From a virus: DNA of 28,780 bases. A program made the translations under genes and the position numbers. Location: the IMG/VR virus record IMGVR_UViG_3300032282_002641, positions 1 to 28,780 of that record; one strand, written 5' to 3'. Below are positions 12,617 to 26,863 of this stretch, in pieces. A model generated the notes under the pieces. The model did not search any database. It had not been told where the DNA came from and saw only the letters and a list, made by a program, of their open reading frames with translations. Each line of letters starts with the position of its first letter. Positions within the stretch are counted from its first letter, which is position 1.

Positions 12617-13064
12617 TGTGATCTCGACTATCACCAGCGTCATCTCGGGACTGGCTCCGACGAGCGAGCCGTCTAGGACGTTTGTGCCGGTACAGGTCGA
12701 GGACTGGATGCCCTTGGAAGATGTCGCGGCAGTCAGGAGCCGAGCGTTCCGAGTGGACGCAATCGGCTCCGTGCTGCAGGACAGATACGTTGGGCTGACC
12801 GTGCACTATCCTGCACACGACCTGGTCGTGAGGGTCTGCTATGCGAGAGGCGACTATCGGTCACCGCACCTGATGGCGTCCATCATGGCCGAGGATGCCG
12901 CAACTATCATCTCTGCCCTGATGCCTGCCTCGGCGTGGGGGAGCTACGCAACCAATCTGTATGCCCTGCCTCCTGTCGAGCGGCAGGAAGTACCAGCCGC
13001 CGACGGTGGTATCCTCGGCACCATCATCAACATCCGCCTGCGGGCAGAGTGGGAGAGACCATGA
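12603..13064 (+). CDS. Tail terminator-like protein
   Basis: A 153-residue protein from GTG 12603, overlapping the previous gene by 14 bp and the tail tube gene by 4 bp (ATGA). It has an N-terminal helix (LADVISTITSVISGLAP), a strand-rich core (RAFRVDAIGSVLQDRYVGLTVHYPAHDLVVRVCYARG), a helix (SIMAEDAATIISALMP) and a final strand (GTIINIRLRAEWERP). This alpha-beta plan, the size and the place immediately before the tail tube match lambda U/HK97 gp-like tail terminators, which cap the growing tail. No signature motif is available, so the call depends on position and fold-like pattern. Confidence 0.55.
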   Translation: MSLADVISTITSVISGLAPTSEPSRTFVPVQVEDWMPLEDVAAVRSRAFRVDAIGSVLQDRYVGLTVHYPAHDLVVRVCYARGDYRSPHLMASIMAEDAATIISALMPASAWGSYATNLYALPPVERQEVPAADGGILGTIINIRLRAEWERP

Positions 13065-14392
13065 GCACCGGCATGAACAATGGAGCGACCACGATGGTCG
13101 CCGAGGAGTCCAGTTATGGCAGCGTCGATCCGACCGATGCCCGCGCCCTGGATACGACAGCTCTCCAGGCACTGACCTGGTATAGCCTCCGGGTTACGCA
13201 GGATTCATTCGCGGCTGGAGCTGGCAGCCTGAAGATGCCCACTGACGAGCGAGCCGATGTGACGCTGGCTGGCGGTCGTCAGCCGCTGCGGGTCCTCACT
13301 GCTGTCGACGCCAGTGGCCCGGTGCGCTCCATCTCGGGTGATGTACCGCTCTCGATGGAAGCGCGTGGTATGGGCGCGAACCTGCCCTCAGCTACGGGTC
13401 TCGGTGTGCTGCTGGCCTCTGGGCTCGGCCTCATCCAGCAGGCCGCCGGGGCTGCAGTCACTGGCACCTACGTCACGCTCAACACGTTCTCGGTCCCGAG
13501 CGCTGGCGTGATCTACCCGGGAGACATCGTCGCCGTCACGCAGCCGGATGGAACGCTGCGAGCCGTCAAGGCTTCGGACGTCTCAGGGCTCAACGTGGTC
13601 ACGACGGTCGAGCCGCACGGCATCCCCGCTGCTGGTACTGCGACGGTCCGACTCTGCCATCAGTACTACATCGCCTCCGATGCTGTGCCCTCGGGCGGCA
13701 GTGTGGCGGCTCAGTACGCTCCCCGGGACGGGTACGATACGATCTTGGCAGTCGGTGGGCGGGTCGCGAAAGTGGACATCACCGCTGGCGGGACGGGCGC
13801 GGTGGACATCGTGGTCACGGTCCGATTCGGGGATGGCCAGTACCAGATGAGTACGACCATCGCTCCCACAGAGCCGCTGCTCATCGGCGCGGCTGGCTCT
13901 ACCGCCATGCGGACGCGGGTCGCCCCTGTCCTGGTCACGGCCGATCATAGCTCCGACTCTGCGCCGTACAGCGGGACCGCCACGGCATTCCCCGTGCGAG
14001 AGTGGTCGGTGAGCATCGAGCTCGACCTGGTGCCGGTGTCCGATCAGGGCACTCGGAGCCGGATGAGCGACATGCGGGTCAGCTCGGCGACCCTGTCCGG
14101 TTCGATGACGGTCGACTCGCCCAACTCATTCGCGGCAGACCTGCGCGAGTGGCTGCGGAGCAGCCAAAAGCGGGGGATTGGTTTCGCTGCCGCTGGCGCC
14201 AACGCCGCTGGAAACGGCTGCGGCATCTGGGTGGGCTCGGTCGAGCCGTCGGAAGATCCCGGGTACACGTTCGCTCCGAACGACCGGACTCAGGTCGTAT
14301 CCTTTCGCGCTGGTGACTACGCTGGCGACGGCAGCTCGACGACCCCGACCGATGCGGCTAATACCCCATGGGTGCTCTGGTTCGTCGCCTGA
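13061..14392 (+). CDS. Tail tube protein (major tail protein)
   Basis: Likely builds the tail tube. The 443-residue, Gly/Ala/Val/Thr-rich protein is almost wholly beta in pattern. It opens with MSTGMNNGATTMVAEESSYGSVDPTDA, the kind of start seen in large major tail proteins (a...ES.yG). Strand motifs include LRVLTAVDASGPVRSISGDVPLSMEARGMGANL near 72-104 and VREWSVSIELDLVPVSDQGTRSRMSDMRVSSATLSGSMTVDSPN near 311-354. The middle (about 135-255) may be an added domain exposed on the tail surface, which would explain a length above the usual 200-350. ATG 13061 has GGGAGAG upstream and overlaps the preceding stop. It lies before the chaperone frameshift gene pair, as major tail genes normally do. 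Confidence 0.75.
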   Translation: MSTGMNNGATTMVAEESSYGSVDPTDARALDTTALQALTWYSLRVTQDSFAAGAGSLKMPTDERADVTLAGGRQPLRVLTAVDASGPVRSISGDVPLSMEARGMGANLPSATGLGVLLASGLGLIQQAAGAAVTGTYVTLNTFSVPSAGVIYPGDIVAVTQPDGTLRAVKASDVSGLNVVTTVEPHGIPAAGTATVRLCHQYYIASDAVPSGGSVAAQYAPRDGYDTILAVGGRVAKVDITAGGTGAVDIVVTVRFGDGQYQMSTTIAPTEPLLIGAAGSTAMRTRVAPVLVTADHSSDSAPYSGTATAFPVREWSVSIELDLVPVSDQGTRSRMSDMRVSSATLSGSMTVDSPNSFAADLREWLRSSQKRGIGFAAAGANAAGNGCGIWVGSVEPSEDPGYTFAPNDRTQVVSFRAGDYAGDGSSTTPTDAANTPWVLWFVA

Positions 14393-14422: not shown

Positions 14423-15025
14423 ATGGGATTCCACCGAGCTACGCGAGCTAACGAGACCAAACGGCTGCCACTGCTCTGCGACCCTGAGCTGCGGGACAGG
14501 GTCGCACGATACATCCTGAGAGTCGGTCCGGAGCGAGAAGCCCAAGAGGCCGAGGCCGATAGGGTTCGGTCCGTGTTCCGGCTATTCGGCGAGACTCTCG
14601 ATCCGAGTGTGCTGCACCAGCTCGGAGACGACATCCTCGACGGCGTGACGCACGTTACGATCCGAGGTCTGAGCGGTGAGCAGTTTGCTGCAGCTACTGA
14701 CGCCGCAGCACTGGCACACGACGAGCAGCCGGCAGTTCCACTGCGGACCTTGGTTGAGGCGGAGTACATCCGAGCTGGCCTGGTAAGCATCGACTCATTC
14801 GATGAGACGCGGGGTCCGACTGGGTACCCAGTCAGGGTGCTCTATGCAGCTGGCGGCATCGGCAGGCAGTGGCCACAGGTACGAGCCGAGGTCGCAGCCC
14901 GGATTGACGCATGGAGCCACCTGGGAAAACCGGCGGGCTCGTCATCCGCGCCCTCGTCAGGCGAGCCAATGCCGAGCGACGCGGGGCACACGTACCCATC
15001 TGTGACGGCTCCTGCCGAGGAGTAG
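14423..15025 (+). CDS. Tail assembly chaperone, short form (gpG-like)
   Basis: A 200-residue protein made when ribosomes do not shift frame. GGAGG at 14414-14418 precedes ATG 14423. It is largely helical and charged (RATRANETKRLPLLCDPELRDRVARYILRVGPEREAQEAEADRVRSVFRLFG), has no export signal, and ends in a Ser/Pro-rich tail after the frameshift point (GSSSAPSSGEPMPSDAG). It sits between the tail tube and the tape measure, the fixed place of gpG/gpGT chaperones that coat the tape measure during tail assembly and are absent from the mature particle. The slippery site at 14923 lies in its codons 168-169. Confidence 0.85.
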   Translation: MGFHRATRANETKRLPLLCDPELRDRVARYILRVGPEREAQEAEADRVRSVFRLFGETLDPSVLHQLGDDILDGVTHVTIRGLSGEQFAAATDAAALAHDEQPAVPLRTLVEAEYIRAGLVSIDSFDETRGPTGYPVRVLYAAGGIGRQWPQVRAEVAARIDAWSHLGKPAGSSSAPSSGEPMPSDAGHTYPSVTAPAEE

Positions 15026-15318
15026 TCAGCGCTCATCCGGCGGACTGGCTCACGCCCGTGGACGTGGCTCCTGATTCTGAGGCGGGAGAGTGGGTGGACG
15101 GACTGTCCTGCTGGCCAGGAGGCGAGCGCGCTCCGTGGTGCCTGGACTGGATGGCCAGGTCTGCGGCTGTGCAGTACATCCTTAGGGCTCGAAGGTGGTG
15201 CGAGGCTGGCCAGCCCATAGGCAACATGTCTGACCTGCCACCTGTGGTGGTCGACGGTGTGCTGACAGTCGGAGCAGAGTGGGATACCATCACGGCCGAG
15301 GAGTCGCGCCACCGATGA
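14423..15318 (+). CDS. Tail assembly chaperone, frameshift product (gpGT-like), join 14423-14929 and 14929-15318
   Basis: Fusion made by a -1 ribosomal frameshift. Reading to AAA at 14927-14929, then slipping back one base and continuing at 14929, joins 169 residues of the G frame to 129 residues of the T frame, giving 298 residues. The T part (TGGLVIRALVRRANAERRG...) has five cysteines and many Trp (DGLSCWPGGERAPWCLDWMARSAAVQYILRARRWCEAG), ending in SRHR. Its only early ATG (14911) lacks a ribosome-binding site and lies upstream of the slippery site in overlapping sequence, so a separate T gene is unlikely. The stop overlaps the tape measure ATG (ATGA). The known lambda GT role is bridging the tape measure and tube subunits. 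Confidence 0.82.
14923..14967 (+). promoter_or_regulatory. Programmed -1 frameshift signal: GGGAAAA slippery site plus hairpin
   Basis: The heptamer GGGAAAA occupies 14923-14929 in the phase G GGA AAA relative to the G frame (codons GGA 14924-14926 and AAA 14927-14929), as needed for -1 slippage. Lambda uses GGGAAAG at the same gene pair. After a 6-nt spacer, GGCTCGTC (14936-14943) pairs with GGCGAGCC (14960-14967): 8 bp with one G-U, 16-nt loop. CCGCG in the loop (14946-14950) can also pair with CGCGG at 14980-14984, which would make a pseudoknot. Confidence 0.85.
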
Positions 15319-17171
15319 TTGCACGCACTGAGATTGAGGTCAGCATCACCGGAGCGATAGAGGCTGAGCAGCAGCTGCAGTCCGTCGCAAATGCCGAGCG
15401 AGAGGTCGGCACCGGCGGAGCCAGGGCGTCGACTGGTGTCGATAAGCTGGCATCGTCGATGCGGGCAATCGAGCACGAGGGTCGGTCCGTCAGCACGGGC
15501 CTCGGGTCCGTAAGCTCCAGTCTCGATGGAGCGAGAGACAGGCTCGGATCTACGCTCTCGGCTTTCAACGACTTGGGAGACGCCTTTCGGCTCGTCGGCG
15601 CCGGGCTGGCTGGTGGTGCGCTGTTCGGCGGATTCGCTGACATCGCAGAAGTCGTGGGCCTCATGGGCGACAAGTTCGGACTAACAGCGTTGCGCGTCGA
15701 CCAGATGGTCGCATCCCAACGCACGCTATCCGCCGAGCTGGTCGCGCGTAAGTTCGAGGTAGAGGACCTCGGCGACGCCGTAGACAGATATGCTCACAGC
15801 CTCGGACTCGCGAGCCAGGCGCAGCTGACATTCCGTGAGCGTCAGGAGGCTCTCCGCAAGATCGCAGCCGGAGAGGTCACCTCGATGGAGATGCAGGACG
15901 CCCAGGCCGCTAAGCTGGCAGACGCTCTTGCTGCCGCTAACCAGCGGCTGGAGTCGTTCCGCCGTGATCGAGTCTCCTTCATGTATGAGGTGACTGCGGC
16001 AGGCGGTGAACGCCAGTTCGAGGCGGCGCTGCAGGGGCGGATCGACAGGCTCAAAGCAGACCTGGATCAGATTAACCGGACTCAGCTCGGTCTACTCGGG
16101 CGCAAGGGCGCTGACCCGATGATGGATGCGGTGAGGGACTACGGCAGCGCCATTTTGGAGCGAGCCAAGGTCACTGTTGCGGTCACAAAGGTAGGGCTGC
16201 AGCAGCAGGCGCAGCAGTGGTCCAGGTTCCTGGCCGACACCGTGGCCAAGATGCAGCAGTCCCCCGCTGGCGCACAGGCCAATACCGCTCGCGCTGGCGC
16301 GGCTAAGCCTGAGCAGACGCTCGGCGACATCATCTCAGGCATTAGCGGTCAGGAGTCTCCGCTGCGCCAGATGGAGACGGCGGCTCTCAGCGGTATCTCC
16401 GAGGCGGGCGGTCGAGAGGACGTCCTGAGCAGGCTGTTCGGGCCTAGCCAGGAGGAGCAGGATGCACTGCGAGACTCGCTGGTGGGGCCGCTGCAAGGCG
16501 GCCTCGAGCAGGCGCTGTCCATCGCAGAGACGCTCTACAGCAATATCTCGGACATTCTCGCGGCAGAGCCTGAGGAGTCTCCGTTCTCTGGCCTGCTGGA
16601 GGGGATGCGTACGTCGGTCTCTCAGATGGCGGCCGAGGCGCAGAACGTAGGCGGCATCATGTCCAGTGTGGTCTCGACGTTCACCTCTGGCGTCGGAACG
16701 ATGGTCACAAATCTCATCGTGGCTGGAGAAGCTGGAGCGAAGTCGGTCCGAAAGACCATCGGACAGGCACTCGGCGGCATCTCTGCCCAGGCGTTCGGAT
16801 ATGCGACCCTGCTCACCGCGCTCGGCGTTGCGGCATCTCTGGGCCTAGTCGGCCTGCCTGCAGCCCCCGGCCTATTCTCCGCCGCTGGCGTGATGGCTGC
16901 TGCGGGTACTGCTCTCGCGCTCAGTGCACGGGCCATGGGTGCGAGCGGTGTGGGAGCCTCATCTGGTGGCAGTCGCGGTGGCGGTGCGCGTGGTGGCGAG
17001 AGCACGCCATCGGCTGCCAGTACAGCCCCAAGATCCGATCGGCAGTCTGGCCCTCAGCCGGTTATCGTCTACATCGGAGAGGACGTGGTGACGAGAGGTG
17101 TCACCAGTTCGGCTAGGCGCCAAGATATGCGAGGCGGCATCGCTGAGCCTCGGCTAGCAGTGGTGGGATAA
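15315..17171 (+). CDS. Tape measure protein
   Basis: Sets tail length and is ejected with the DNA. The 618-residue protein starts at an ATG overlapping the chaperone stop. It is helical and Ala/Gly/Ser-rich with long heptad-like stretches (about 15-105, 180-290). Hydrophobic segments lie at about 90-105 (LVGAGLAGGALFGGFA) and 495-545 (FGYATLLTALGVAASLGLVGLPAAPGLFSAAGVMAAAGTALAL), which fit the membrane-inserting part of tape measures. The C-terminus has a Gly/Ser/Arg-rich flexible region (about 555-590). It is the longest gene between the chaperones and the tip genes, though shorter than many. By the usual rule of about 0.15 nm per residue the tail would be roughly 90 nm. No lytic domain is seen. 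Confidence 0.83.
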   Translation: MIARTEIEVSITGAIEAEQQLQSVANAEREVGTGGARASTGVDKLASSMRAIEHEGRSVSTGLGSVSSSLDGARDRLGSTLSAFNDLGDAFRLVGAGLAGGALFGGFADIAEVVGLMGDKFGLTALRVDQMVASQRTLSAELVARKFEVEDLGDAVDRYAHSLGLASQAQLTFRERQEALRKIAAGEVTSMEMQDAQAAKLADALAAANQRLESFRRDRVSFMYEVTAAGGERQFEAALQGRIDRLKADLDQINRTQLGLLGRKGADPMMDAVRDYGSAILERAKVTVAVTKVGLQQQAQQWSRFLADTVAKMQQSPAGAQANTARAGAAKPEQTLGDIISGISGQESPLRQMETAALSGISEAGGREDVLSRLFGPSQEEQDALRDSLVGPLQGGLEQALSIAETLYSNISDILAAEPEESPFSGLLEGMRTSVSQMAAEAQNVGGIMSSVVSTFTSGVGTMVTNLIVAGEAGAKSVRKTIGQALGGISAQAFGYATLLTALGVAASLGLVGLPAAPGLFSAAGVMAAAGTALALSARAMGASGVGASSGGSRGGGARGGESTPSAASTAPRSDRQSGPQPVIVYIGEDVVTRGVTSSARRQDMRGGIAEPRLAVVG

Positions 17172-23846: not shown

Positions 23847-24215
23847 ATGCCGTCGTCGATTCCTGACATTTCCGGGTCGGAGTGCGCTTCACTCCCGCCG
23901 ATTACGCTCGCCACCACAGACTGGACGACCCGCCCATCGTCCGACTTCATGAGCTTTTCTTCGGGCGAGTCGATCGCAGCTGACCGTCATCTGGTCTCGC
24001 TCATCGTCCGCAATTCGTCCGAGTCTGGCTCCGTCTGGATCTCGGGTCGCTCGGACCTCACCACGGAGTCTCCTGAGACCGTCGGCGGAGCGATTGAGGT
24101 GCCCTACGGAGAGCAACTCACCATCGGCCTGTACGGGTCACAGGCTTCGGCTATCGCCTATTGCGGCGACGTCGGTAGTACCGTCAGCATCATCGCCACT
24201 TTCTTTCCGTACTGA
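23847..24215 (+). CDS. Small beta-rich protein before the fibre (unknown)
   Basis: A 122-residue protein; GAGG at 23837-23840 precedes ATG 23847 by 6 nt. It is Ser/Thr-rich and beta-like, with [30 protein letters not shown] in the middle and [39 protein letters not shown] at the end, a typical small beta-sandwich alternation. No family is recognised. Placed 8 bp before the fibre gene, it could be a fibre-attachment or head/tail decoration protein. Codons are mostly G/C-ending, like the fibre. Confidence 0.6.
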
Positions 24216-24223
24216 GAGGCAAC

Positions 24224-26863
24224 ATGAGCGTCTCCCCAGGATTTTCGGTTCTCCGCGGCGGAGTGGGTCCGGCTGGTCCGGCTGGACCGCAGGGCATCCA
24301 GGGCATCCAGGGCGTGCAAGGTCCGCAGGGTGACCAGGGTGTTCAGGGCGTGCAGGGTCCGCAGGGAGACCAGGGCATCCAGGGCGTGCAAGGCGACCAG
24401 GGTGACCAGGGCATCCAGGGTATTCAGGGTGTGCAGGGTATCCAGGGCGTGCAAGGCGACCAGGGTGACCCCGGCACGCCCGGTGCCGATGGCGACCGAT
24501 ACGCGACGACGAGCACCACATCCCTGACCATCGGCAATGGGGTTCGCTCGTTCACCGTCGAGACCGGCCTCGACTACACGGTGGCTCAGCCCATCATCAT
24601 CGCCCACGATACCGGCACGCACATGCACGGTACGCTCACGAGCTATAGCGCGATCACCGGCGCCATGGTCGTGGACGTGTCGCGGCACACCGGCTCCGGC
24701 ACGTTCAGCACCTGGAGCGTAAACCTGGAGGGCGTGGCTGGCGTGCAGGGGCCTGCCGGTCCGCAGGGTGAGCAGGGCCTGCAAGGCATTCAGGGCGAGC
24801 AGGGCATCCAGGGCGAGCAGGGTATCCAGGGAGCACAGGGCGACCAGGGTATCCAGGGCGTGCAGGGTGTTCAGGGCGTGCAGGGTGACCAGGGTGACCA
24901 GGGTCCGCAGGGTGACCAGGGCGTTCAGGGCGTGCAGGGTCCGCAGGGAGACCAGGGTCCGCAGGGTCCGCAGGGTCCGCAGGGCGACCCAGGCGCCCCG
25001 GGCGCGACAACCGTCACTGGGCTGACTGACCGCTACGAGGAGCTGCCGTCGCAGACCTTCAGCGACTTCGCTCACGGCGGCCTCGTGCCTGCGTCGCCCA
25101 CGCGGGACATCCAGACTGCAATCGACGCGACCCCGGTCGGCCCGGCCTGCCAGGTCATCGTTGGACCCGGCTCCTACGCTGGGGCGACGGTCACCATCCC
25201 GACCGGCCGCAACAACATCGCCATCATCGGACCGAGCGCGGGCGACTTCGGCGGGACCATCGCGAGCCTCACCTCCGGTCGAGCACTCACCATCGGGAAC
25301 AACGCCGTTCGGGTGCGCCTGGTTAACATCCAGATTGAGGGCCTGACGACCATCTCGACGACGGGCGCGGGCATCCATCGTATCGAGCGATGCCAGCTCG
25401 AGGGCGGCCTGACCGTGGGCGCCATCTCGTCCGATATCTATCTCGTCGGGTGCACGCTCGGGTCCGTCACCGTCAACGCTGGATTTACCGGCCTGCTGTT
25501 GATCGACCGTTGCCTGTTCAACGCCGGGGCGGTTTTCACAAACAACGCGATCCAGACCCGAGTGCTCATCTCGGACACTGCTGGTCTAGCCAGTGCTCCG
25601 TCGACGACTGCGTACCTCAACGGTCGCTTCCAGCTCGCGTCAGGCGCGACGCAGTTCTTCCAGGACGGCGGCTTGCTCCTGAAGGCACCGCTCACGGCGG
25701 TCAACGGCCTGACGCCGGCAGCAGACCGCATCGCCTACTACACGAGCGCCAGCGCGGCGGCGATGACCGCGCTCAGCGCGTTCGGGCGCTCGCTCATCGA
25801 CGATGCGGATGCGAGCGCAGCTCGTACTACCCTCGGCCTCGGGACCGCTGCGACGCAGGCGTCTGGTGCGTTCCAAACGGCCGACGCGACGCTGACTGCC
25901 CTCGCTGGACTGACGACGGCGGCCGACAAGCTGCCGTACTTCACGGGTGTCGATACGTCGGCTGTCACGACCCTGACGACGTTTGGGCGCTCGCTCATCG
26001 ACGATGCGGACGCATCAGCCGCGCGTACAACGCTCGGGCTCGGGACGGCGGCCACCGCCAACACCGGCACTGGGGCGGGCAACATCGTGGTTCTCGACGG
26101 GCTATCTCGGCTGCCCGCTGTCGATGGCTCGCAGCTCACTGGCATCGCTGGTGGAGCTCCCTATGCCTCCGATGTCTGGGACTACGAGTGGAACGCGTCG
26201 GCCGGCACCACGATGGAGACCGACGGCTGGACGAAGACCGGGGTCATCACTGACACCTCGACGACCATCGGCGCGTACACCGCGCGGCTCCTGACGCCCA
26301 CTGCCAACTCCGGCGCGGCGTACATGAGCAAGGTCATTTCGAGCACCGCGCCGGTCACCGGACTCAGCATCTACGGGTCGTTCGAGCTCCGAGTGCTCTG
26401 CGTTCTGCCAGCGTCGACGTCAGCGAACATCGTTCACGCCCTGGCGTTCTGCATGCAGGCTGGCGGAAACCAGTTCATCCCTGCCGTCACGTCGACCGCA
26501 ATCTGGGCGTCGAGCGGCGCTGGCACGCTGACGTCCCTCACCCTGACCGCCGGGCTCCCGAACCGCTCCATCTGGATCACCATCCGGTGTGCCAACGGCC
26601 TGACCTCCGGGTCTGTCGCCGGTACGAGCTACACCGAGGTCTGGGTCGGAGGAATCCGGATCTGGACCGGCATCAGCACGACGCCGTGGGCAACGTTCAC
26701 GGCCGGCTCTGAGGGCCTGCTTCGCATCGGACGCATCGTCGGGCCCGGCAGCGGCGGCAACGTCGAAGCGGTCAAGGTCGCGTCGATCAAGTGGCGCGCC
26801 GGATGGAACGCGGCGCCTGTCGACTACACCCTGCGTGCGCTGTATGGAGCACCCGGGCCGTGA
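24224..26863 (+). CDS. Collagen-like tail fibre with beta-helix domain
   Basis: Host-recognition fibre, 879 residues. In order: two Gly-X-Y collagen-like stalks (15-91 and 173-261), almost always Gly-X-Gln; between them a small domain (about 92-172, [19 protein letters not shown]...) of a kind often seen between phage fibre collagen stalks; then a beta-helix-like repeat region (about 285-480, [39 protein letters not shown]) resembling pectate-lyase folds; then two copies of a 67-residue unit with [17 protein letters not shown], a repeat common in phage fibres; then a C-terminal domain (about 640-879) likely for receptor binding or trimerisation. GAGAGG lies upstream of ATG 24224. Enzymatic residues in the helix cannot be assigned. 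The stop overlaps the next GTG. Confidence 0.85.
24266..24493 (+). repeat. 9-nt minisatellite coding collagen stalk 1
   Basis: About 25 Gly-X-Y units from tandem 9-nt repeats of the form G-S-NNN-CAGG. The Y position is nearly always Gln; X is Ile, Val, Pro or Asp. A 54-nt block at 24321-24374 recurs at 24903-24956 in the second array with one mismatch by eye. Confidence 0.88.
24740..25006 (+). repeat. 9-nt minisatellite coding collagen stalk 2
   Basis: About 29 Gly-X-Y units built from the same 9-nt repeat as stalk 1, with added Glu and Leu at X and a run of Pro-Gln units near the end. The repetition is expected to promote slippage and recombination, changing stalk length. Confidence 0.88.
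25781..26056 (+). repeat. Two 67-residue direct repeats in the fibre
   Basis: The segment beginning [17 protein letters not shown] is encoded at 25781-25855 and again at 25982-26056, 201 nt apart, with synonymous differences. The preceding 20 residues (AADRIAYYT and AADKLPYFT versions) are also similar, so the unit is a full tandem duplication of about 67 residues. Confidence 0.85.

Follow-up and report, generated by a model that had tools for sequence, protein, structure and literature searches.

A conserved GGGAAAA site very probably joins two putative tail-assembly reading frames by −1 frameshifting in an uncultured phage group

In the tail region of an uncultured phage, two overlapping reading frames lie between a tail-tube candidate and a tape-measure-like gene, and the locus raises the question of how the second frame is translated. 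The DNA that we examined, referred to here as the window, consists of positions 1 to 28,780 of the IMG/VR record IMGVR_UViG_3300032282_002641, a metagenomic virus record from an uncultured tailed phage. In long-tailed dsDNA phages, frameshifting between genes G and T at sites of the kind found here is well known (PMC5009743). In lambda, gpG and gpGT are chaperones in which the tape measure protein is bound by the G part and the tube protein by the T part; −1 slippage at a low rate fixes the gpG/gpGT ratio (PMC5009743). A reading of the window made from the sequence alone had proposed the same arrangement here.

The first, G-like frame (14423..15025) codes for 200 amino acids and has an SD-like sequence, ggaggtga, just upstream. 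The second, T-like frame is the −1 frame, which is open between TGA 14905 and TGA 15316–15318, so its end is where the sequence-only reading had placed it. The part read after a slip (14929..15318) is an open frame conserved as a protein; it would add 129 amino acids, including a cysteine-containing domain, for a predicted GT fusion of about 298 amino acids. The putative junction is the slippery heptamer GGGAAAA at 14923..14929. As that reading had stated, the heptamer is in exact G_GGA_AAA phase with the first frame: the codons CTG, GGA and AAA begin at 14921, 14924 and 14927, in the frame of ATG 14423. All of these features, and those described below for this region, are on the plus strand. 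No other strong slippery heptamer is in phase at any of the 8183 codon positions checked in the main ORFs, and the plus strand of the window has no further copy of GGGAAAA; shuffling gives an expectation of 0.2 copies per window for both strands combined. AAA is the minor lysine codon (11 of 77) in the window, whose GC content is 65%. Just 5' of the heptamer there is an SD-like GGAG in the three closest lineages, which are too few sites to judge.

Relatives came from several searches of IMG/VR. An initial protein search gave two loci, and later searches raised the number of close contigs to four, in which G is 89% (L010) or about 50% (L011, L012 and L013) identical to that of the window. Searching with aligned major capsid protein sequences gave 37 more loci, with capsids 50–61% identical. 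The G/T region is held by 17 further contigs, made up of the four close ones and more distant ones, and some of the 17 are near-identical to one another. In all 17 a slippery heptamer is in phase at the same position: it is GGGAAAA in 16, including all four close contigs, and CCCAAAA in the other (L034). The heptamer closes a conserved segment, 'VSTLGK' or 'WSHLGK', in every contig that reaches the region. In L034 a triple change from GGG to CCC replaces Gly by Pro and retains the XXXAAAA pattern, as selection for slipping predicts. Because identity over the pre-slip part of G falls from 89% through 50% to about 33%, and that of T drops to 20–31% in distant relatives, the site has outlived much of the protein sequence. 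An in-phase heptamer and its retention in relatives are both features of programmed −1 ribosomal frameshifts of the X_XXY_YYZ type. The L030-type relatives also have a second GGGAAAA, encoding DGKIG, 385 nt past the slip site and close to where the tape-measure gene begins (L030:15359-15365, L037:16121-16127, L046:10101-10107 and L059:7013-7019).

The −1 frame past the heptamer is constrained as a protein. Its protein-level conservation in close relatives is 88% and 62%. Between the window and L010, differences 5' of the heptamer are distributed over the three frame-0 codon positions as 3/0/9, mostly third, and in the T-only stretch beyond the end of G they are distributed over the T codon positions as 1/1/8. 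In the dual-coded overlap (14930..15025), where the tail of G is read in frame 0 and T in frame −1, substitutions are fewer than in the flanks, with 6 replacements in T versus 10 in G between the window and L011, and 0 in T versus 2 in G between L011 and L012. Where frame 0 ends past the heptamer varies among relatives (+22, +100, +103 or +151), the shortest distance of 22 nt being that in L030, L037, L046, L059 and L032. T and its relatives share conserved cysteines, in the form CDGxC or CxxCADGDC followed by a later Cys, and these residues suggest a metal-binding domain; this part of T had no family match.

If T were instead a separate gene, started by internal initiation or translational coupling, the heptamer would be incidental. 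The sole candidate T start in the window before the conserved block is an ATG in the −1 frame at 14911..14913, which is also present in L011–L013. However, this ATG has no Shine-Dalgarno sequence, L010 has ACCTGG in its place, and the heptamer is retained everywhere, including through the GGG to CCC swap. Between −54 and +135, the three close lineages have no T start in common. More distantly, L030, L037, L046, L059 and L032 have no ATG, GTG or TTG in the −1 frame from the upstream stop (−75) to +138, and L039 has no T start codon from −57 to +150, so translation of T's conserved N-terminal part can come from G only in these genomes. Homologues with separately started genes would have argued against the sequence-only reading, and we found the opposite. 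With no conserved start codon, and none at all in the L030-type span, we reject a separate T start and regard a separate gene as very improbable. A −1 frame that is conserved as a protein but has no start of its own is a further feature of programmed −1 frameshifting, and since this is the state of T, frameshifting is its best-supported route of expression, with strong support. Two findings thus uphold the proposal that a −1 frameshift joins the two frames: conservation in divergent relatives, and a second frame that has no usable starts.

Two other explanations accept the split frame and differ on its origin. The record is metagenomic, and a one-base indel would look the same, so the split could in principle reflect faulty sequencing or a broken gene and not be programmed. 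The relatives contradict this, because 17 other contigs repeat the arrangement, the heptamer being conserved and the end of frame 0 varying, and we consider the probability of such an artefact or broken gene close to negligible. Slippage by RNA polymerase, and not by the ribosome, might occur at the run of four A in the heptamer. Four A is a short run for such slippage, and what is conserved is the whole XXXAAAA pattern, including a GGG to CCC replacement that is coordinated. Re-pairing of tRNAs accounts for this and polymerase slippage does not; we find the latter explanation scarcely credible. The heptamer, its phase and conservation, the constraint on the −1 frame, the lack of alternative starts and the gene order were all computed here.

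A hairpin or pseudoknot downstream is common at −1 frameshift sites, although it is not obligatory. The hairpin that had been described 6 nt after the heptamer is present, pairing 14936–14943 with 14960–14967 in a stem of 8 bp with one G-U. It is not unusually stable. Its z-scores against shuffles of the region are +0.28 and +1.14, and an equally good hairpin occurs at about 14% of random window positions (8% by a second figure), or at about 2% when uninterrupted stem stacking alone is scored; when the span is lengthened slightly, 3–24% of random positions match it, depending on the locus. We therefore reject the hairpin as a significantly stable structure: the heptamer is beyond chance, and the hairpin is not. 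Among relatives, the stem is in register in three of four lineages (window/L010, L031 and the L030 group), with a spacer of 5–6 nt, but it is broken by an A-A mismatch in L011 and does not form in this register in the fourth lineage, the L039/L041/L035/L034 group. Across lineages its pairs show one compensatory change from G-C to C-G and one change from U-G to C-G. The covariation score over ten sequences is above those of shuffles (2 of 500 reach it) and of slid versions, a result weakened by the relatedness of the sequences and by dual coding. The hairpin is a plausible stimulator of the slip. As for the pseudoknot that had been proposed, the segments CCGCG (14946–14950) and CGCGG (14980–14984) exist, but their pairing is not conserved: it is intact in the window and L010 only, retains 4 of 5 pairs in L011 and L031, is mostly lost in L030 and L046, and is absent from the L039/L041/L035/L034 clade. 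We do not accept it.

The label 'tail chaperone' comes from gene order and anatomy, not from homology. Upstream of G is the tail-tube candidate (13061..14392, 443 amino acids), and downstream is the tape-measure-like gene (15315..17171), with its start codon and the T stop overlapping in ATGA. Synteny with relatives extends over the tube candidate, G and the tape measure, and G/T lies between the other two in every relative that reaches the region. The order claimed in the sequence-only reading therefore stands, with the qualification that the tube is named by position and synteny, and the tape measure by a match to Tape_meas_lam_C that narrowly misses the curated cut-off (E = 1e-4). The order and anatomy likewise fit tail chaperone frames, but G and T had no match to a tail-chaperone family in Pfam, PHROGs or NCBIfam and no relevant match in PDB. 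Family and PDB searches with the tube candidate gave no useful match, and AlphaFold models of G and the tube candidate were of low confidence (pLDDT 40 and 27) and were not used. Elsewhere in the window, a DnaB-like helicase ORF (151-1488, Walker A GGASGHGKT) is situated near the left end, upstream of the terminase. A long, tail-fibre-like ORF (24224-26863) has two collagen-like stretches of GPQGxQG repeats, and the long antisense ORFs opposite it (24158-25378 and 24705-25010) seem to be a side effect of the repeats.

Searches of cultured phages with G, T, the tube candidate, the tape measure and the capsid of one relative found no match in the deposited phage records searched. The terminase matches cultured phages at about 24–29% identity only, and a scan of genome contigs with the tube candidate gave zero matches. 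The searches of this analysis identified no cultured relative of the group to which the phage belongs.

The lambda G/GT slip site is GGGAAAG. The locus described here resembles lambda in having its −1 slip on a heptamer of the G_GGA_AAN type, close to where the first frame ends, and in the placement of the pair, with the tube candidate on one side and the tape measure on the other, the end of T meeting the start of the latter. It differs from lambda in a post-slip overlap of about 96 nt (relatives have their frame-0 stop at +22 to +151), in the hairpin at a spacer of 5–6 nt in three of four lineages, in the conserved cysteines of T and, as it also does from other long-tailed phages, in the lack of detectable protein homology to catalogued chaperones. 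Among actinobacteriophage tail-chaperone frameshifts, GGGAAAA has been reported for phage Bush (PMC11749239), an identical heptamer in the same kind of pair; Bush belongs to a different phage group, and G, T, the tube and the tape measure here had no match in the deposited phage records searched.

We propose that the gene pair would yield a short chaperone, G, and a longer form, GT. A minority of ribosomes would slip one base back on G_GGA_AAA, with tRNA-Gly and tRNA-Lys re-pairing with GGG and AAA, and would then read the −1 frame through T until the TGA that overlaps the start of the tape-measure gene. By analogy with lambda, the tape measure would be bound by G and GT, tube subunits would be recruited by T, and the G:GT ratio would be set by the slip rate. 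Slippage in cells, its rate, the chaperone function and any part that the hairpin may play are what we infer. For the model as a whole, in which a −1 slip at G_GGA_AAA gives the longer tail-assembly protein GT beside G as chaperones, we estimate a probability of about 0.93. A more specific version is doubtful, in which a conserved hairpin 5–6 nt past the heptamer stimulates the slip and has been kept in register by compensation despite divergence of the protein that it encodes, and in which G and GT are unrelated in sequence to catalogued chaperones and so represent an independent or extremely diverged case.

It is thus very probable that the phage uses a one-base slip at GGGAAAA to produce a second helper protein for tail assembly, longer than the first. 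The mechanism is the already known G/GT frameshift, and the general picture of frameshifting is unchanged; what is new is a clear further example in an uncultured phage group. A consequence for annotation is that the two frames should be joined. The example extends the G/GT frameshift to a group with neither a cultured relative found nor a sequence match to catalogued tail chaperones, and its naturally diverged sites, which carry GGGAAAA or CCCAAAA and either have or lack the hairpin, are a test set for stimulators of bacterial −1 slippage.
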